64,000 nt of DNA from Acidobacteriota bacterium (GTDB lineage: Bacteria > Acidobacteriota > Thermoanaerobaculia > Gp7-AA8). Location: assembly GCA_003223645.1 (NCBI GenBank), contig QHVT01000009.1, positions 124,001-188,000 on the forward strand, in the 5' to 3' direction. Below are positions 53,500 through 60,590 of this stretch, one piece after another (the stretch's first letter is position 1; every line of letters starts with the position of its first letter). Below the pieces are notes generated by a model. It made no database searches and was not told the DNA's origin. It was given only the letters and a program-made list of their open reading frames with translations. The position numbers and the translations under genes were made by a program.

Positions 53500-55162
53500 G
53501 CGGATCTTCCGCTTTGCGTTTCGCTTCGCTCAAGCGCTCCTCGGCTTCGAGCAACGCGGCTTCCATCTGATCGAACTCGCGCTGTTCCAGGTACGACAGC
53601 CGCTTCGGTTTCTCGCTTGTGGAGCGGCGCCCGCTTCGGGCGCCGGGATCTCGCGAGAAATCGGCGGCCGAAGCGGCCGCCGCTCCACTCGCTTGTTCGT
53701 AATCGGCGAAGTATTCGGCGTTACCACGCCCATCTAACGAAAGCACCCGCGTCGCGACGCGATCGAGCAAGTACCGATCGTGCGTGACGAGGACGAGCGC
53801 GCCAGGAAACTCGAGGAGCGATTCTTCGAGGACGTCGAGCGTCGGGATGTCGAGGTCGTTCGTCGGCTCGTCCATCACCAGCAAGTCCGCCGGCTGCAGC
53901 ATCAGTCGCGCGAGGACGATGCGTGCCTTCTCGCCGCCCGACAATTTCGACACCGGCGTCTCGAGTTGTTCGGCGCGGAAGAGAAATCGCTTCGCCCAGC
54001 CGGCGACGTGCACCGCTCGTCCCTGATGCATCACGCTGTCGCCTTCCGGCGCGAGCGCGCGCTTGAGCGTGAGCGCCGGATCGAGGCTCTCGCGGTTTTG
54101 CTCGAAGTAGACGACGCGCAATCCGTCAACACGCTCGATCGTGCCGGCGTCCGGCGCGAGCTCGCCGACGATGATGCGCAGCAGCGTCGTTTTCCCTGAG
54201 CCGTTGGGACCGACGACGCCGAGGCGGGAGCCGGGAGTGAGAAGGACATCGAGGTTCGAGAAGAGCGGAGACTTCGTCAGGCCGCGCGCGGACCAGAGGC
54301 GTTTCGTTTTTCGCTGCGACGCCGCGAATTCGATCTCCGCCGATGACGTCGCGCTGCGCGTGCGGCTCTCGTCCAGCTCCTCGATCAAACGATCGGCGTT
54401 CTGAATGCGCGCCTTCGCCTTCGTCGAGCGCGCCTTCGGACCGCGGCGCAGCCACTCCATCTCCCGGCGCACGAGATTCGCGAGCGTCTCCTGATACGCC
54501 GCCTCGTTGCGCAGCACTTCATCGCGCTTCTCCAGCAAATCACTGTACGTACCGCTCACTTGCAGGAGTCCGCCCGCGTACGCGCGATTCAGCTCCAGCA
54601 TCCGCTTGGTGATGTTCTCGAGGAAATAGCGGTCGTGGCTGACGACCACGAACGCCTTCGGCTCCTCGCGCAGCAGCTCTTCGAGCCACAAAATTGCTGC
54701 AATGTCGAGATGATTCGTCGGCTCGTCGAGCAGCAGCACATCCGGCTCGCGCACCAGCTCGCGCGCGATCGCGAGGCGCTTCCGCCATCCTCCCGAAAGC
54801 GTGTCCGTCTTCGTGTCGCGGTCGCTGAAGCGCGCTTTGCCTAACGCGAGGGCAACGTGCGCGAACTTCTCGTGCTCCTCCCCTTCGAGCGCGTCGAGCA
54901 GCACTTCTTCGACGGATTTCCCCGGCGCGAAGACGGGATCCTGCGGCACGTAGCCGACGCGCACGCCTTTGCGCACCACGCGCGCGCCCGCGTCGGGATC
55001 GTCGATGCCGGCGAGAATCTTCAGCAGCGTCGACTTGCCCGACCCGTTCGGACCGACGAGTCCGACGTGATCTCCGTCATTCAACGCGAACGACAAATTC
55101 GCGAACAACGGCCGCGCGCCGAACGACTTCGTCAGATTCTCAGCCGAAAGAAGAAGGCTCAT
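53384..55162 (-). CDS. ABC-F family ATPase (Uup-like) with an in-frame palindrome
   Basis: The 592-residue protein has two ABC domains ([71 protein letters not shown]) and a C-terminal coiled coil ([20 protein letters not shown] ... AALAAQ-like end), the Uup layout. Uup acts in ribosome or DNA-transposition-linked processes. Residues 492-515 ([14 protein letters not shown] ... GRRST) between the second ABC domain and the coiled coil are encoded by a 70-bp palindrome, the same peptide found in the outer-membrane protein at 37663-38577. The start codon touches another palindrome. Confidence 0.93.
53619..53688. repeat. GTGGAGCGG palindrome inside the Uup-like gene
   Basis: A complete 70-bp copy, differing from 38027-38096 at a single position (GGGATC versus GGAATC), in the same orientation relative to its gene and in the same reading frame. 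Confidence 0.93.
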
Positions 55163-55262
55163 AGGCGCACAGGCTCATGGGCTCACAGGCTCATGGGCTC
55201 ACAGCGGCTTCTCTGAGCCTGTGAGCCTTTGAGCCTTTGAGCCTTGATCCCCGTGAGCCTAT
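55157..55262. repeat. GAGCCTAT palindrome spanning from a stop codon to a start codon
   Basis: The arms are repeats of GGCTCAT/GGCTCAC and complement GTGAGCCTTTGAGCC. One edge contains the ATG of the Uup-like gene (55160-55162) and the other the TAG stop of the upstream gene (55259-55261), so the palindrome forms the entire spacer. Confidence 0.85.
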
Positions 55263-55498
55263 CCCAACGCGCGTAACTCGTTCTCGAGATGCGCCAGCGC
55301 ATTCTTCAACGCCGCCCGATGCACCTCGGACTTCGCACTCGCCAGCTCGTTCATCACGCGCCGCTTCGAGAGCTCGAGACTCTCCCGCTTCGTGCGAAGT
55401 TCGAGCTCTTCACGACTGGGCTGATCCGTGCGTCTGACGGACCGGCGCTCATCGAGCTGCTGCGATTCGACGGACTTGCTTTCGAACCCGCGTGCCAT
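55259..55498 (-). CDS. Small conserved hypothetical protein (MARGFESKSVE type)
   Basis: The 79-residue protein starts MARGFESKSVESQQLDE and continues with a charged helical stretch (EELELRTKRESLELSKRRVM, SAKSEVHRAALKNALAHLE), likely a coiled coil. I recall this start as shared by a small hypothetical family in Acidobacteriota. An open frame upstream is repeat DNA. It precedes the Uup-like gene and may be cotranscribed. Confidence 0.7.
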   Translation of the reverse strand: MARGFESKSVESQQLDERRSVRRTDQPSREELELRTKRESLELSKRRVMNELASAKSEVHRAALKNALAHLENELRALG

Positions 55499-55527
55499 GG
55501 TGATTTGCGCGTGCATCATACGTTCCC

Positions 55528-55647
55528 GATGGCAGATGGCAGATGGCGGATGGCAGATGGCAGATGGCAGATGGCAGAAGCGGGGGTCCGGGCCATCCGC
55601 CATCTGCCATCTGCCATCTGCCATCCGCCATCCGCCATCTGCCATCC
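55528..55647. repeat. GATGGCA-heptad palindrome between divergent genes
   Basis: The left arm has seven GATGGCA/GATGGCG-type heptads, the right arm the complement; the loop is AGCGGGGGTCCGGGC. It lies between the small MARGF gene and the sigma factor gene. Confidence 0.88.
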
Positions 55648-55685
55648 CCGAACGAAACGAGAGTTGGACGTGTTAGTAGAGAGGC

Positions 55686-56300
55686 ATGAAGAACTCGTGG
55701 ACAGGTGAGGCCGTGTGGCGCTCCGAGCCCGCCGAAGAAAATCTGGCGGTCGCCGTCCACCGTTGTGAAACGGGCGCGCTGGAGCGGCTGATCGATCGCT
55801 ACGAGCGCGCGCTCTACAGCTACGCGTACGGCATTCTGCAGAATGCCTTCGACGCGCAAGAGGTCGTTCAGGACGCGATGCTGCGCGCGCATCGCGCTCT
55901 CACGCGGCAGTACAACGAGCAGCGTTGCATCGACTTGGCGCTGCGGCCGTGGCTGTTTCGCATGACGCGCAATCTTTGTCTCAACAAACGCCGCTCGAAA
56001 ACGCGCGCGCTGGAGCAGCCGCTCGAGACGTTCGACGACGGCCGCCTCGGTCCGTTCGTCCGCCATCACGGCGAGGACGCGGAGCGCCGCGAGGATGCCG
56101 AGCTGCTCCGCCGCGCGATGGGCGCCCTGCCCGTCGAAGCGCGCGAGCTGATCGTCCTTCGATTCATGGAAGACATGTCCTACGGAGAAATCGCCAGGAC
56201 CGTCGGCGCGACCGAGTCCGCGCTGCGCGGAAAAGTCTTTCGCTCCCTGAAGCTCCTGAGGGATGCGCTGGAGAAAAAAGGAGTCACCCATGCGGTGTAG
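55686..56300 (+). CDS. ECF-type RNA polymerase sigma factor
   Basis: The 204-residue protein has region 2 (ALERLIDRYERALYSYAYGI, NAFDAQEVVQDAMLRAHRAL) and region 4 (LPVEARELIVLRFMEDMSYG, EIARTVGATESALRGKVFRS), separated by a short linker; there is no region 1 or 3, as in the extracytoplasmic function class. The last codons overlap by 11 bases the start of a gene whose product carries a zinc anti-sigma motif, the typical sigma/anti-sigma arrangement. The final GGAG in its coding sequence serves as ribosome binding site for that gene. Confidence 0.94.
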   Translation: MKNSWTGEAVWRSEPAEENLAVAVHRCETGALERLIDRYERALYSYAYGILQNAFDAQEVVQDAMLRAHRALTRQYNEQRCIDLALRPWLFRMTRNLCLNKRRSKTRALEQPLETFDDGRLGPFVRHHGEDAERREDAELLRRAMGALPVEARELIVLRFMEDMSYGEIARTVGATESALRGKVFRSLKLLRDALEKKGVTHAV

Positions 56301-57222
56301 ATCGGTTCTGACTCGCATCGATGCCATGCGCACCGGCGAGCTCGCCTCAACGGATCGCGACGAGATCCACGAGCACATCGGCGATTGCCGGAGCTGCAAC
56401 GAGTCCGTCGCCGACGTCGACGTCTTCGCACAAACCATCAAGTCGCTCGCCGCCGCGCCGCCACGCTCGTGCCGCGATGCAGTGACGGGCAAATGCAGTG
56501 ATTCATACGCGCGCATCACCGCGAGCGGAGAAACGGTGTGGGTCGCGTTCACCGATCGGGGCCTGCGCATGATCCATCGCGGCGGCACGCTCGAAGATGT
56601 GCGCGAGCGTTACGCGAACAGACACGCGCGCACGCTCACCGAGGCGAAGCTGCCGGAGAAGTTCCGCAAGCAGGTCGAGGCGGCGTTGCGCGGCGAAGGA
56701 GTCGACGATCCGCAGATCGACTGGGACGACGACTTCTCCGGCATCGAGCGCGACGTGCTGAAGATGCTGACGCGCATTCCGCGCGGCGAAGTGCGCACCT
56801 ACTCATGGATCGCGCAACAGGTCGGACGGCCGGGAGCGGTGCGCGCGGTCGGCAACATCTGCGCGCGCAACGTCGTCCCGTTCGTCGTGCCGTGTCACCG
56901 CGTCGTGCCCGCGTCGGGCGGAGTCGGCCAGTACGCGTTCGGCAGCGCGCTCAAACGCGAGCTGCTGAAACGCGAAGGCGTCGACGTCGACGCGCTCGAG
57001 GCACTGGCCAGGAAAAACGTCCGCTTCATCGGATCGAAGACCACGAAAATCGTCTGCTTCCCGACCTGTCGCGATGCGCGTCGCATTCGCGAGGAGAACC
57101 GCGTCCCTTTTCAGGACGCCGCGGCGGCAGAACAGAAAGGGTTCCGTCCATGCAGGAAATGCCAGCCGTTCGCGGCGCGAACAACGTCGTCCAAATCCCG
57201 CTCTTCCCGCGTCTCGTCATAA
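56290..57222 (+). CDS. Anti-sigma (ZAS) / O6-alkylguanine-DNA alkyltransferase / Ada-type metal-binding fusion
   Basis: The 310-residue protein has three parts. Residues 1-60 carry HIGDCRSC (His29, Cys33, Cys36), the HxxxCxxC motif of zinc-binding anti-sigma factors. Residues 70-232 are an alkyltransferase: a ribonuclease-like first half, then RGEVRTYSWIAQQVGRPGAV, the active PCHRVV with Cys202, and QYAFGSALKRELLKREG. Residues 240-293 resemble the Ada methyl-phosphotriester domain: FIGSKTTKIVCFPTC, then GFRPCRKC, giving Cys256, Cys260, Cys288, Cys291 with Ada-like spacing. In classical Ada this domain is N-terminal. The start at 56290 overlaps the sigma gene; GGAG is 9 bases upstream. It probably senses DNA methylation damage and controls the sigma factor. 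Confidence 0.9.
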   Translation: MRCRSVLTRIDAMRTGELASTDRDEIHEHIGDCRSCNESVADVDVFAQTIKSLAAAPPRSCRDAVTGKCSDSYARITASGETVWVAFTDRGLRMIHRGGTLEDVRERYANRHARTLTEAKLPEKFRKQVEAALRGEGVDDPQIDWDDDFSGIERDVLKMLTRIPRGEVRTYSWIAQQVGRPGAVRAVGNICARNVVPFVVPCHRVVPASGGVGQYAFGSALKRELLKREGVDVDALEALARKNVRFIGSKTTKIVCFPTCRDARRIREENRVPFQDAAAAEQKGFRPCRKCQPFAARTTSSKSRSSRVSS

Positions 57223-57887
57223 ACCATGTGAGTGCCGCTGCCCCCAGCGGCACCGCGACCGCTGAGGGCAGCGGTCGCCACATCGCAGAAGTAACCGCGC
57301 TCTCGCGTCCCGCACGCACGTTCACCGGCGACTTCTACTTCACGCATCGCGAGCGCGATCGTCTCTGGCTCGCACACGGCGACGTCGCGGGCAAGGGACT
57401 GCCGGCCGCGATCGTGATGGCGATGATCCAGGAAGAGCTCGAGCATCGCATCACCGCCTGCGCGGCGACGCAATGCGATCCCGCGGTGACGATGCAGCGG
57501 CTGCACGAGTTCCTCCGTCCGCTGCTGCCGCAGAATCGCTTCGCCACCGGCGTGATCGGAACGCTGCGCGAAGACGGCATGCTGACGATTGCTAACGGCG
57601 GTCACTGCCCGCCGCTGATCATCCGCCGCGACGGATCGATCGACGAGATCGGCTCGACCGGCCCACTCCTCGGCATCCTCCATCACGCCGAATGGCGCTC
57701 CACGACGACGCGCCTCGGCCGCGGCGAAACGCTCGTCCTCTACAGCGACGGCGTCACCGAGTCATGCGCCGACCTCGGCGTCGCCGGACTGAAGGAAGTG
57801 CTGAAAACCGCGCGCACGCCGGAAGAAGTCGTCGCAAAGATCGGCAAGCCGATGGACGACGTGACGCTGGTAATGGTCCGGCGCTAA
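57150..57887 (+). CDS. SpoIIE/RsbU-type PP2C serine phosphatase with an in-frame palindrome
   Basis: The 245-residue protein shows the SpoIIE-type PP2C pattern: VQIPLFPR at the start, SRPARTFTGDFYF, GDVAGKGLPAAIVMAMIQ, GVIGTLREDGMLTIANGGHC, GETLVLYSDGVTES and MDDVTLVMV. The metal-binding Asp residues are in GDFYF, GDVAGKG and SDGVTE. Residues 26-45 (NHVSAAAPSGTATAEGSGRH) are encoded by a palindrome of the CCGCTGCCC family. The gene overlaps the alkyltransferase fusion by 73 bases. A GTG at 57228 within the palindrome is an alternative start, but VQxxLFPR argues for the ATG at 57150. It may act on an anti-sigma antagonist, which is not seen here. Confidence 0.87.
   Translation: MQEMPAVRGANNVVQIPLFPRLVINHVSAAAPSGTATAEGSGRHIAEVTALSRPARTFTGDFYFTHRERDRLWLAHGDVAGKGLPAAIVMAMIQEELEHRITACAATQCDPAVTMQRLHEFLRPLLPQNRFATGVIGTLREDGMLTIANGGHCPPLIIRRDGSIDEIGSTGPLLGILHHAEWRSTTTRLGRGETLVLYSDGVTESCADLGVAGLKEVLKTARTPEEVVAKIGKPMDDVTLVMVRR
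57226..57283. repeat. CCGCTGCCC palindrome inside the PP2C gene
   Basis: Inverted arms GTGCCGCTGCCCCCAGCGGC and GACCGCTGAGGGCAGCGGTC have ATGTG and CACAT at the ends. It begins 4 bases after the stop codon of the alkyltransferase fusion and lies in frame in the overlapping phosphatase gene. Relatives are at 6538-6629 and 58031-58127. Confidence 0.88.
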
Positions 57888-57894
57888 CGTTTCG

Positions 57895-58044
57895 TTGTGG
57901 TGACCGCTGTTGTGGTGACCGCTGTTGTGGTGACCGCTGTTGTGGTGACCGCTGTTGTGGTGACCGCTGTTGTGGTGACCGCTGTTGTGGTGACCGCTGT
58001 TGTGGTGACCGCTGTTGTGGTGACCGCTGTTGTGGTGACCGCTG
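57895..58044. repeat. 15-bp tandem repeat, about 9.5 copies
   Basis: Nine exact copies of TGACCGCTGTTGTGG (57901-58035) start just after the PP2C stop codon and run into a palindrome whose own arm begins with the same GTGGTGACCGCTG. The array appears to be an expansion of one arm of that palindrome. Confidence 0.95.
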
Positions 58045-58127
58045 CCCTCAGCGGTCACCGCGCCGCCTATGGCGGCGCCAGCGGCGCTGCGCGCCGCCGC
58101 GACCGCTGAGGGCAGCGGTCGCCACAT
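58031..58127. repeat. CCGCTGCCC palindrome at the end of the 15-bp array
   Basis: Arms GTGACCGCTGCCCTCAGCGG and CCGCTGAGGGCAGCGGTCGC with nested GGCGGCGCC hairpins in between. Confidence 0.85.
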
Positions 58128-58176
58128 AGCGCAGCGAAACAGGATGTCCCTCGCTCAGTGCTAGGAGCTTGCGCGG

Positions 58177-58283
58177 CAGAAACCGCGATCTCAGGCGCGT
58201 TGCGCCGCTCGAAGCCGCAGTCGTGACGTGGCGGCAAGCAGGCCGCAAGGCGGAGCAATCCACGCAGCCGCCCGTGGCGGCTA
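58177..58283. repeat. 107-bp dispersed element ending at a stop codon (second copy)
   Basis: This is about 90% identical to 42205-42313. Its end includes the TAG stop codon of the reverse-strand secreted protein, as the first copy includes the stop codon of the BtpA-family gene. Confidence 0.85.
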
Positions 58284-60590
58284 GTGCCGCGCCGAGCGCG
58301 TTCGCGTGCTCGGTGCGGCCGGCTGCGAGTACGCACCCGCGCCCGCGTCGTTCCACGCGCGCACGCGCAACTCGATCGATGATCCAGCCGGCAGCGCTGT
58401 CGAATACGTTCGCTGTTCGGGATCGAACCATTGATCGACTTCGGTCCACGCGCCGTTGTTCACGCGCGTCTCGACGCGATAGCCGTTGACGCGTTGCGGC
58501 GGCGGCGACCATCCGAGGATGAGCGTGTTGCCGTCCTGCTTCAGCGAGGTGCGCGGCGCGTCGGGCAGCGGCGGCAGACCGAACGACGCGATCTCCATCA
58601 TCACGTGATTCGTTCCGTACAGCGGCACCGCGTTCTGCGCGGTCGAGTAGAGAATCGCGAGCTCGCCGCCGGGCAGCGGCGCGAGTTGCAGGAACGGACT
58701 GTTGTCATCCTGATAGACGATCGCCGATGTGCTGTCGCCGAGGAGCGCGACGCGAGACTCGAGGATCGGCGACGAATAGCGGGAAGTCGTCCAACTGATC
58801 GCGACGCGGCCCGCGAACGGCGCGAGGCGGACATTGAATCCGCTGCTCGAGGAGATGATCGAAGTGGCCCCCGCTCCATCGAGCCGCGAGGCAACAACGT
58901 TCCCAGTGCTCCACGCCACGACGTATTCCGTCCCGCTCCACGTCACATCCGCGCTGTAGAGGTTTTGACCGTTCACGAACGTCAGCGGCGACGCGTCGAT
59001 CGGGCTCAGATTCGCATCGAGATGAATTCCGGCCAGGCCGTCCGGAAAGCAGATCGGCTCCGCGAAGGGTGAGCACGTTTGCAACACCGCCCAGATCACG
59101 AAGAAGCCCGCGCCGTTCGATGCGATCCGCGGTCGCAGGACCGTGCCGTTCGCAGAGTAAGGAAGCACGACCGGATCGGAAATGCTTCCGCCGGGCGAGA
59201 GCAGCGCGACGACCGGCGCGTTGTCTTTCATGCCCGCGATCGCGTAGTTGCGCCCGTTCCAGGCGATGCTCTCCGCAAAGAACGCGGTGATGCGCGTTCC
59301 CGTCGTGGTGCGCAATTCGGAATCGATCGCGACCGGCAGGTCGTCGAGAACCACCAGGAAATCGCGGCCGTCGCTCGCGGCGCTCACGCGCACTGCGCTC
59401 GACGCGATCTCGCGCTCGCGCCACCGTCCATCACGCGTGCGGATCCCCGCGCGGATCGCCGAGCGGCCGCCGCCGGTGTCGCTCCACACGACGAGCATCG
59501 CGTCCGATGACGTGGCCGTCGCGAGGAGTAGCTGCGATGTCGCCGCGAACGAAACAGGCTCGCCGTTGACTGCCGGAAGCTCCGCCGCGCGAATGGATCC
59601 GCCGATGCCGATCCACGACACCACCACGCGCGGACCGACGGCGACGATCGTTCCCTCGGGGCTCTCGACCGTGCGCCGCGACGTGATGAATCGCGCATCC
59701 GCATCCGCCTCGGCCACGATCGTTCCGCGTCCGTTCGGATCGCGATACGCGAACACCCAACGCGATCCGTTCCACACGACCTCGGGCGCAAAGAAGAACG
59801 TGCTCGGCGCGACTTCGAGCGTCGACGTCGTGCCGATGCTGCCGTCCGCCGCGATGAGCGTCGTACGAATGACGTTGTCGACCGCCTCCGCGAACAGGAA
59901 GCGGTTGCCGTCGCTGGCGAGCGCAATGCGTCCGCCGAAAACATCGCTGAGATTGCGCTGCGAAAGAAGACGTCCTTCGGCGTCGAACATCGACAGCACC
60001 GGCCCGCTGCTCATCGGGATGACGACGGCGAATCCGTTTCCGTTCGATGCGACGAGCGGAGGACCTTGCGTGATGCGGCGCTCGAACACGACCGGCGGTG
60101 CGGCCTGCACTCCGTCCGGCGTGAGCAATATCGATGTGCCGTCGATGATCAGCAGCACGTTCCTGCCGTTGAACGCCATGCGCGGCCACAGCGCGTGCTC
60201 CGCGCCCTCGATCGAAAACGCGTCGCCGGCCGGTGCACCGCTCGCATCGACCAGCCGCGCCGACATGCGATAGAAGTCGACCCGATGCGTTGCCGCGGCG
60301 AGGAAATGCGAACCGGTCCACACCGCATCGAAGTACTGGCGATCGATGACGTCGAAGTCGAAGACAGGACGGCCCACGGTACTGTCGGGCTGTCCGAGGC
60401 GCGTCACGCGGAGCTTCGTGCCCGTCCAGAAGAGAAACGCGTCGCGGCCGTTCGTGCGCAGCGCCGGCGTGCCGCCGGTCGTTCCGTAACGCGTGTTCGT
60501 CAGCGCGAACGGCTGCCCGATCGGCGGCAGCTGCGCGCCAAGCGTCGCGGTGATGAATAGAAGCGGAAGGACCCGGCGACCGCACTTCAT
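58281..60590 (-). CDS. Secreted beta-propeller protein with a C-terminal fibronectin III domain
   Basis: The 769-residue protein has a signal peptide (MKCGRRVLPLLFITATLGA). Propeller-like repeats follow (VWTGSHFLAAATHRVDFYRM, RIALASDGNRFLFAEAVD, VVWNGSRWVFAYRDP, IASNGAGFFVIWAV), each with a W/F-aromatic strand and a variable hairpin. The last 90 residues form a fibronectin III domain (SPPPQRVNGYRVETRVN, SSIELRVRAWNDAGAGAYSQ). The final residues (STRTRSARH) run to a stop codon inside a dispersed repeat. A role in surface binding is likely; no catalytic motif is seen. Confidence 0.85.
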   Translation of the reverse strand: MKCGRRVLPLLFITATLGAQLPPIGQPFALTNTRYGTTGGTPALRTNGRDAFLFWTGTKLRVTRLGQPDSTVGRPVFDFDVIDRQYFDAVWTGSHFLAAATHRVDFYRMSARLVDASGAPAGDAFSIEGAEHALWPRMAFNGRNVLLIIDGTSILLTPDGVQAAPPVVFERRITQGPPLVASNGNGFAVVIPMSSGPVLSMFDAEGRLLSQRNLSDVFGGRIALASDGNRFLFAEAVDNVIRTTLIAADGSIGTTSTLEVAPSTFFFAPEVVWNGSRWVFAYRDPNGRGTIVAEADADARFITSRRTVESPEGTIVAVGPRVVVSWIGIGGSIRAAELPAVNGEPVSFAATSQLLLATATSSDAMLVVWSDTGGGRSAIRAGIRTRDGRWREREIASSAVRVSAASDGRDFLVVLDDLPVAIDSELRTTTGTRITAFFAESIAWNGRNYAIAGMKDNAPVVALLSPGGSISDPVVLPYSANGTVLRPRIASNGAGFFVIWAVLQTCSPFAEPICFPDGLAGIHLDANLSPIDASPLTFVNGQNLYSADVTWSGTEYVVAWSTGNVVASRLDGAGATSIISSSSGFNVRLAPFAGRVAISWTTSRYSSPILESRVALLGDSTSAIVYQDDNSPFLQLAPLPGGELAILYSTAQNAVPLYGTNHVMMEIASFGLPPLPDAPRTSLKQDGNTLILGWSPPPQRVNGYRVETRVNNGAWTEVDQWFDPEQRTYSTALPAGSSIELRVRAWNDAGAGAYSQPAAPSTRTRSARH

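Follow-up and report, generated by a model that had tools for sequence, protein, structure and literature searches.

The 64,000-nucleotide (nt) window analysed here (positions 124,001 to 188,000 of contig QHVT01000009.1, from an Acidobacteriota bacterium) encodes a 310-residue protein in which what is almost certainly a zinc anti-sigma domain precedes an O6-methylguanine methyltransferase domain and an Ada-type four-cysteine (Cys4) zinc domain. The gene of this fusion overlaps an upstream gene for an extracytoplasmic function (ECF) sigma factor by 11 nt and a downstream gene for a SpoIIE/PP2C-type phosphatase by up to 73 nt. We propose, with a probability of roughly 0.6, that the fusion acts as the cognate anti-sigma factor for this ECF sigma factor and that its two suicide methyl-acceptor domains serve as the input. 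The three overlapping genes had been named in a sequence-only reading of the window, and both the open reading frames and the Pfam matches bear them out (for the sigma factor, Sigma70_r2 with E 9e-13 and r4_2 with E 6e-11). The coordinates and residue numbers given there were also right (His29/Cys33/Cys36, PCHRVV with Cys202, and Cys256/260/288/291), and Cys3 now joins the first group.

Domains of the fusion protein

Residues 3-36 of the fusion match zf-HC2 with E 0.0024, which lies under the Pfam curated cut-off for the window protein; the same family reaches E<=0.1 in 16 of the 17 orthologues, with 5.5e-7 as the best value. The zinc ligands Cys3, His29, Cys33 and Cys36 are spaced C-x25-H-x3-C-x2-C and are invariant in all 17 aligned fusions. 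They include the Hx3Cx2C signature of class I anti-sigma domains (ASDI, zinc type), with His29 in helix 20-32 and Cys36 in helix 34-53. In an AlphaFold2 model of the whole fusion, built from the 17-row alignment (predicted local distance difference test score, pLDDT, of 84), four helices (3-14, 20-32, 34-53 and 61-69) precede the methyltransferase. Because the VIA search with this whole model covered mainly residues 67-235, residues 1-70 were modelled separately, which gave the identical four helices with a pLDDT of 87; the predicted model has the three-helix bundle followed by helix 4 of the ASDI fold. When this part was compared with the PDB by Foldseek, the top 17 of 47 rows were RslA, MucA, RskA, RsiW, ChrR and DdvA (E 0.13-3.2, probability 0.99-0.21) and the first unrelated row stood at rank 18. 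Rows 1-9 of the VIA search were all anti-sigma domains, the best being RsiW (Z 7.7, root-mean-square deviation (rmsd) 5.6, 68 residues aligned) and MucA (Z 6.6, rmsd 2.0, 53 aligned). A profile of residues 1-58 likewise had RsiW (E 0.004), DdvA (0.01) and RslA (3hug, 0.04) as its three best PDB matches. As a control, a profile of residues 1-70 was run against 199 genomes of the phylum and returned 6 fusions and 30 weaker rows. Of these weaker rows, 18 were fetched, and each has a same-strand ECF gene immediately upstream. The possibility that zf-HC2 is a weak chance match is ruled out by the 16 matching orthologues, the predicted fold and these 18 ECF-linked profile relatives. Sequence and models together make it nearly certain that residues 1-70 are an anti-sigma domain, and binding of the fusion to the sigma factor is predicted as very likely. 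An anti-sigma-like fold at the N-terminus was one of the points on which the sequence-only reading had chosen to stand or fall; the profile matches to RsiW, DdvA and RslA, the structure matches and the 18 ECF-linked relatives uphold it.

Downstream of this domain, residues 153-231 match the DNA-binding domain of O6-methylguanine methyltransferases (DNA_binding_1, E 3e-28) and residues 246-293 match Ada_Zn_binding (E 2e-12). The modelled methyltransferase domain aligns with the E. coli Ada C-domain (1sfe) with Z 16.6 and rmsd 2.5 over 161 residues. Cys202, which lies in a PCHRVV motif in the window protein, is invariant in the 17 aligned fusions, as are Cys256, Cys260, Cys288 and Cys291, which align with Cys38, Cys42, Cys69 and Cys72 of E. 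coli Ada; three fusions found later stand outside this alignment. A larger set of 41 rows combines the 17 zinc-domain fusions with 3 proteins from a family of the same class (f10) and 21 from a wider contig scan. Cys202, His203, Arg185, Asn194, Tyr171, Glu229 and the four Ada cysteines are invariant in 41 of the 41, and both acceptor sites therefore look competent. The available text of PMC4437013 gives E. coli Ada Cys38 as the methylphosphotriester acceptor and Arg45 as the contact to the promoter A-box. The position of Arg45 is occupied by Ala263 in 17/17 aligned fusions, and no AraC-type helix-turn-helix (HTH) was found among the Pfam families that the 17 fusions match at E<=0.1. The alkyl-transfer chemistry thus looks kept and the DNA-binding output of Ada lost; the domain order and the missing HTH match agree with the earlier statement that the Cys4 site is C-terminal and that the AraC-type part is missing.

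The fusion is the sole Ada_Zn match in 11 of the 18 family genomes, the source genome counted. Longer, separate frames with a strong match (E 2.8e-27 or better), which we take as classical Ada, occur in genomes G004, G011 and G015 and also in G018, a genome of the same order. G005, G006 and G013 have weaker extra matches, and G010 has a single weak match, located elsewhere.

Table 1. Coordinates of the operon, its predicted domains and related features (window positions unless indicated)
Feature	Position	Strand	Basis
ECF sigma factor, regions 2 and 4, 204 amino acids (aa)	55686-56300	+	Pfam
Fusion protein, 310 aa: predicted anti-sigma domain, O6-methylguanine methyltransferase, Ada Cys4 domain	56290-57222	+	
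Predicted class I zinc anti-sigma domain, residues 1-70, Cys3/His29/Cys33/Cys36	56290-56499	+	profile, model, structure matches
Methyltransferase domain, residues 69-232, PCHRV acceptor Cys202	56494-56985	+	Pfam, structure match
Acceptor Cys202 codon (PCHRV)	56893-56895	+	kept in 41/41 rows
Ada-type Cys4 zinc domain, residues 246-293, Cys256/260/288/291	57025-57168	+	Pfam, alignment
Cys256 codon, equivalent of E. coli Ada Cys38 (methylphosphotriester acceptor)	57055-57057	+	alignment
SpoIIE/PP2C-type phosphatase, 245 aa, start codon uncertain	57150-57887 if that ATG is used	+	Pfam
Promoter-like element CGAACG-N14-CGTGTT	-35 55649-55654, -10 55669-55674 (whole 55649-55674)	+	
DUF1203 gene with the same element, clearest second member of the predicted regulon	L103 / G000:C21:218694-219201, outside the window		

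Distribution and genomic neighbours

The fusion was searched in 60 genomes, the source genome counted. Of the 17 further genomes from its own family, 15 contain a full-length homologue, as does the one genome of the same order, which with the source genome gives 17 full loci; the two leftover family genomes (G002 and G010) hold fusion fragments at contig ends. An ECF gene lies directly upstream of the fusion in 17/17 loci of this first set. A wider contig scan, covering the best 80 of 200 relatives (79 loci), recovered 15 known fusions and one further record (L149), distinct from all other loci and accompanied by an ECF gene and a phosphatase. Two more full systems, both with ECF gene and phosphatase, came from another family in the search of 199 genomes of the phylum. 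In total, all 20 full fusions have an ECF gene immediately upstream, the position that is also a criterion for ASDI proteins. The tie between fusion and ECF genes that the sequence-only reading expected in relatives is thus seen in other genera and in another family, and always with the fusion behind the ECF gene. Judged from the sequences, this recurrence with invariant key residues means that the layout is more than chance. Viral contigs searched by pattern gave 8 matches, none of them a relative, and no Rfam family was matched in 55000-58400.

Among the same best 80 of 200 relatives, 21 loci encode the methyltransferase followed by the Ada domain and are without the zinc domain. Their hosts are Pseudonocardia, Frankiales, Chloroflexota, Rokubacteria, a Methylomirabilis, a Nostoc and a Holophagae bin. 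Here again, most loci (16 of the 21) have an ECF gene as their immediate upstream neighbour. Two of the five loci without an upstream match are cut by the contig start (L162 and L173); none was found at L168, L169 and L170, which keep the methyltransferase-Ada order, the contig of L169 ending about 590 nt upstream. The proteins of family f10 are zinc-less and have an ECF gene in 3/3 cases. As these relatives keep their ECF neighbour, the association is independent of the zinc domain. When the methyltransferase-Ada part is used for a tree with midpoint rooting only, the 17 zinc-domain rows group as a single clade with support 98/90; its placement among the zinc-less rows is less sure, the neighbouring forks having support of 81-89. 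A P-x-x-L-x-x-x-V segment near the start of 14 of the 24 zinc-less proteins aligns with helix 4 of the anti-sigma domain, and we infer that these proteins may be anti-sigma factors too.

The third gene of the operon matches the SpoIIE domain with E 4e-34 and shares with SpoIIE/RsbU phosphatases the catalytic motifs GD, GDVAGKG, SDG and DD, which are conserved in the complete orthologues. It differs from these phosphatases in that the three operon genes include neither a kinase nor a STAS partner, no genome-wide search for such partners having been made. The phosphatase follows the fusion in 16 of 17 first-set loci, with a partial match in G012, and the zinc-domain operon of G016 is intact without it. 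Counting all loci, it is present in 19/20 with the zinc domain (one partial) and in 0/24 without, the latter within available flanks of which some are short, and therefore seems to travel with the zinc form. This co-occurrence suggests that the phosphatase could be a second input to the switch; it is probably an accessory that belongs to the zinc-domain form. A GC-rich 27-mer with 43 exact genome copies, itself a portion of a longer interspersed repeat, occurs at 57257-57283 and 58101-58127, and one copy falls inside the phosphatase start region, where the window protein has residues unseen in the aligned orthologues. Directly 3' of the phosphatase gene, 57894-58044 holds ten perfect copies of the 15-base unit GTTGTGGTGACCGCT.

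Promoter-like element and predicted regulon

In the first set, CGAACG-N14-YGTGTT precedes every one of the 17 ECF genes, 9-11 nt from the start codon (11 nt in the window), and at the other three zinc-domain loci the ECF genes are preceded by GAACG-N14-CGTGTT; GAACG-N14-YGTGTT is common to 20/20 zinc-domain operons. We predict from these sequences that the element is the site through which the ECF sigma factor recognises its own operon. The operons of family f10 carry CAAC-N15-CGTGTT. Among the 16 other zinc-less ECF genes, a relaxed element is matched by regular expression at 5, compared to 0.009 expected per region, and by eye nine of the 16 upstream regions look similar. Neither this shared element nor the DUF1203 link described below was part of the sequence-only reading. 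Immediately before the element of the window, positions 55528-55647 contain two arrays of 7-base units that are reverse complements of each other; such arrays were not seen in the 90 nt upstream of 16 orthologous ECF genes.

The strict pattern occurs 59 times in 18 family genomes, compared to 5 times for the backwards motif and to 115 and 21 times when the spacing is changed to N13 and N15. On account of these wrong-spacing controls, isolated matches were treated as background and only recurrent targets were counted; a large regulon based on the raw counts was rejected. Matches were inspected by eye for the most part, and by Pfam for 12 chosen proteins. The clearest recurrent target is a gene for a DUF1203 protein (PF06718, E 4e-31). 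Close homologues occur in 7 of the 18 family genomes and the element lies just upstream of 7/7, exact in six and with one mismatch in the seventh. The chance of an exact element at six of seven is about 1e-28, for a target that was chosen after the matches had been seen. DUF1203 neighbourhoods on four plasmids have no ada annotated within 4 kb, and the one literature match listed for DUF1203 is a paper on fungi. A distant DUF1203 gene in G018 (L131, G018:C8) is divergent from a classical Ada gene in this relative of the same order.

Other matches recur less often. Homologues of a methyltransferase of G008 (E<=1e-15) are found in 2/19 genomes, both with the motif. The exact element is also found upstream of DinB-like genes in two genomes and of DUF4440/SnoaL-like genes in two genomes (L086, L089, L067 and L111), which may be targets or chance matches. 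A second match in G000, GAACGNNA-N11-CGTGTT upstream of a long frame that by eye resembles an LptC-like gene, was set aside as probably due to chance, and the second copy in G008 sits on a contig with the look of an inverted join.

Proposed mechanism, alternatives and known systems

From the domains, the predicted fold and the genomic linkage we infer sigma binding, methylation as the trigger, the cysteine that matters and the shut-off as follows. In the unmethylated fusion, residues 1-70 would hold the sigma factor. This hold would be lost when Cys256 accepts a methyl group from a DNA methylphosphotriester, or directly from a methylating agent, and/or when Cys202 accepts one from O6-methylguanine. 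The freed sigma factor would then transcribe its own operon, providing fresh repair and sensor protein, together with a few further genes, chiefly DUF1203, until newly made unmethylated fusion re-captured it and shut the response off. Every fusion molecule could react a single time only, so that the anti-sigma factor would be titrated by the damage. Such a methyl-triggered release of the sigma factor is likely. The sequence-only reading had likewise supposed that DNA methylation would alter the shape of the fusion and free or hold the sigma factor. A bolder version, which we put forward tentatively, would make the repair methyltransferase itself the anti-sigma factor, one sigma-holder being destroyed for each methyl removed, so that damage is counted stoichiometrically. 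The zinc-less proteins of Actinomycetota, Chloroflexota, Rokubacteria and other Acidobacteriota would work alike and supply a mechanism for an ECF122-like group, and the system would have replaced classical Ada in most genomes of one acidobacterial lineage.

Several observations weigh against the proposed mechanism. The pairing of an ECF gene with methyltransferase-Ada persists in other phyla without the zinc domain. For residues 1-70, zero Foldseek matches reached E 0.001 and the VIA Z scores are modest, insufficient on their own. The raw counts of the element do not stand clear of the wrong-spacing controls, and the distant DUF1203 gene of G018, the eighth (31% identical, in a genome that also encodes the fusion), lacks the element over the upstream stretch that was scanned. 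None of the other motif matches, inspected by eye and, for 12 chosen proteins, by Pfam, was recognised as an alkylation-repair gene, in contrast to the regulon of E. coli Ada. Finally, soluble zinc anti-sigma domains are often redox sensors, according to the available text of PMC7406223. The main rival builds on this last point: the zinc site Cys3-His29-Cys33-Cys36 would open by disulfide formation as in RsrA, and methyltransferase-Ada would be repair cargo whose synthesis is raised. The RsrA model TIGR03988 aligns to fusion residues 2-43 (profile 1-42, E 4e-4), and as this alignment is of equal length the zinc-ligand spacing fits RsrA, in which the trigger cysteines are Cys11 and Cys44. However, the ECF neighbour is kept where the zinc domain is absent (16/21 and, in f10, 3/3) and the methyl-acceptor cysteines are kept in 41/41 rows, so that the constant partner is the alkylation module and not the zinc site; we consider redox release unlikely.

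That the ECF association outlasts the zinc domain would also suit a methylated fusion acting as a positive partner, its Ada domain contacting sigma region 4 or promoter DNA while the zinc domain merely tethers it to the sigma factor. In E. coli, Ada becomes a transcriptional activator once methylated, and an interaction of Ada with a sigma subunit is reported in the available text of PMC4437013; the replacement of the A-box contact by Ala263, the unmatched AraC-type HTH and the ECF gene's own promoter-like element nevertheless make this scheme improbable. We give still less credit to a switch driven mainly by the phosphatase, which would dephosphorylate the sigma factor, the fusion or an unlinked protein and leave the alkylation domains to repair only. 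Its conserved catalytic motifs and its apparent restriction to zinc-domain loci speak for such a role, but the G016 operon does without it, none of the three genes is a kinase or STAS partner, and the co-occurrence may reflect lineage only. Least credible is an operon of convenience, a standard pair of ECF sigma and anti-sigma factors to which repair domains were fused without regulatory meaning. The remaining predicted regulon is indeed not recognisable as DNA repair, but an ECF gene beside methyltransferase-Ada is found again in Actinomycetota, Chloroflexota, Rokubacteria and other Acidobacteriota, and the published ECF122 group has a similar neighbour (available text of PMC8999054).

Compared to E. 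coli Ada, the fusion likewise unites a Cys4 methylphosphotriester acceptor and an O6-methylguanine methyltransferase (PCHR) in one protein, with the checked catalytic residues kept, and is predicted to induce itself. It differs in the reversed order of the two domains (methyltransferase, then Cys4), in the lack of an AraC-type HTH match, in the replaced Arg45, in an output predicted to pass through an ECF sigma factor and not through DNA binding, and in a predicted regulon not recognisable as DNA repair. With the class I zinc anti-sigma factors RsrA, ChrR, RsiW and RslA it shares the predicted four-helix domain, the C-x25-H-x3-C-x2-C spacing and a gene directly behind an ECF gene, and its sensor part is C-terminal to the anti-sigma domain, as in ChrR. 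Known sensors of this class are cupin, membrane or disulfide devices, whereas that of the fusion would be a DNA-repair suicide enzyme. ECF122, compared here by description only, also has a 6-O-methylguanine methyltransferase in its conserved neighbourhood; in the available portion of the 2022 review (PMC8999054) its mechanism is given as unknown and it is listed without an anti-sigma factor, whereas the neighbour described here itself carries an anti-sigma-like domain in residues 1-70. The sequence-only reading knew of no described system with this layout. This stands for the fusion itself, no anti-sigma/methyltransferase fusion being described among the literature matches listed (a search whose coverage leaves out most subscription journals), but not for the association of ECF and methyltransferase genes, which is already in print for ECF122. 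What is new is an anti-sigma factor with a new, predicted type of sensor.

The fusion is carried by a soil acidobacterial lineage and is not the oddity of a single genome. If the proposed mechanism is true, it would provide these bacteria with a second route from DNA methylation damage to transcription, by release of a sigma factor and not by Ada-type DNA binding. It may also offer a handle on ECF122, a sigma group whose control is given as unknown in the available text of PMC8999054, and DUF1203, a Pfam family of unknown function, would gain a predicted regulator and a predicted stress.

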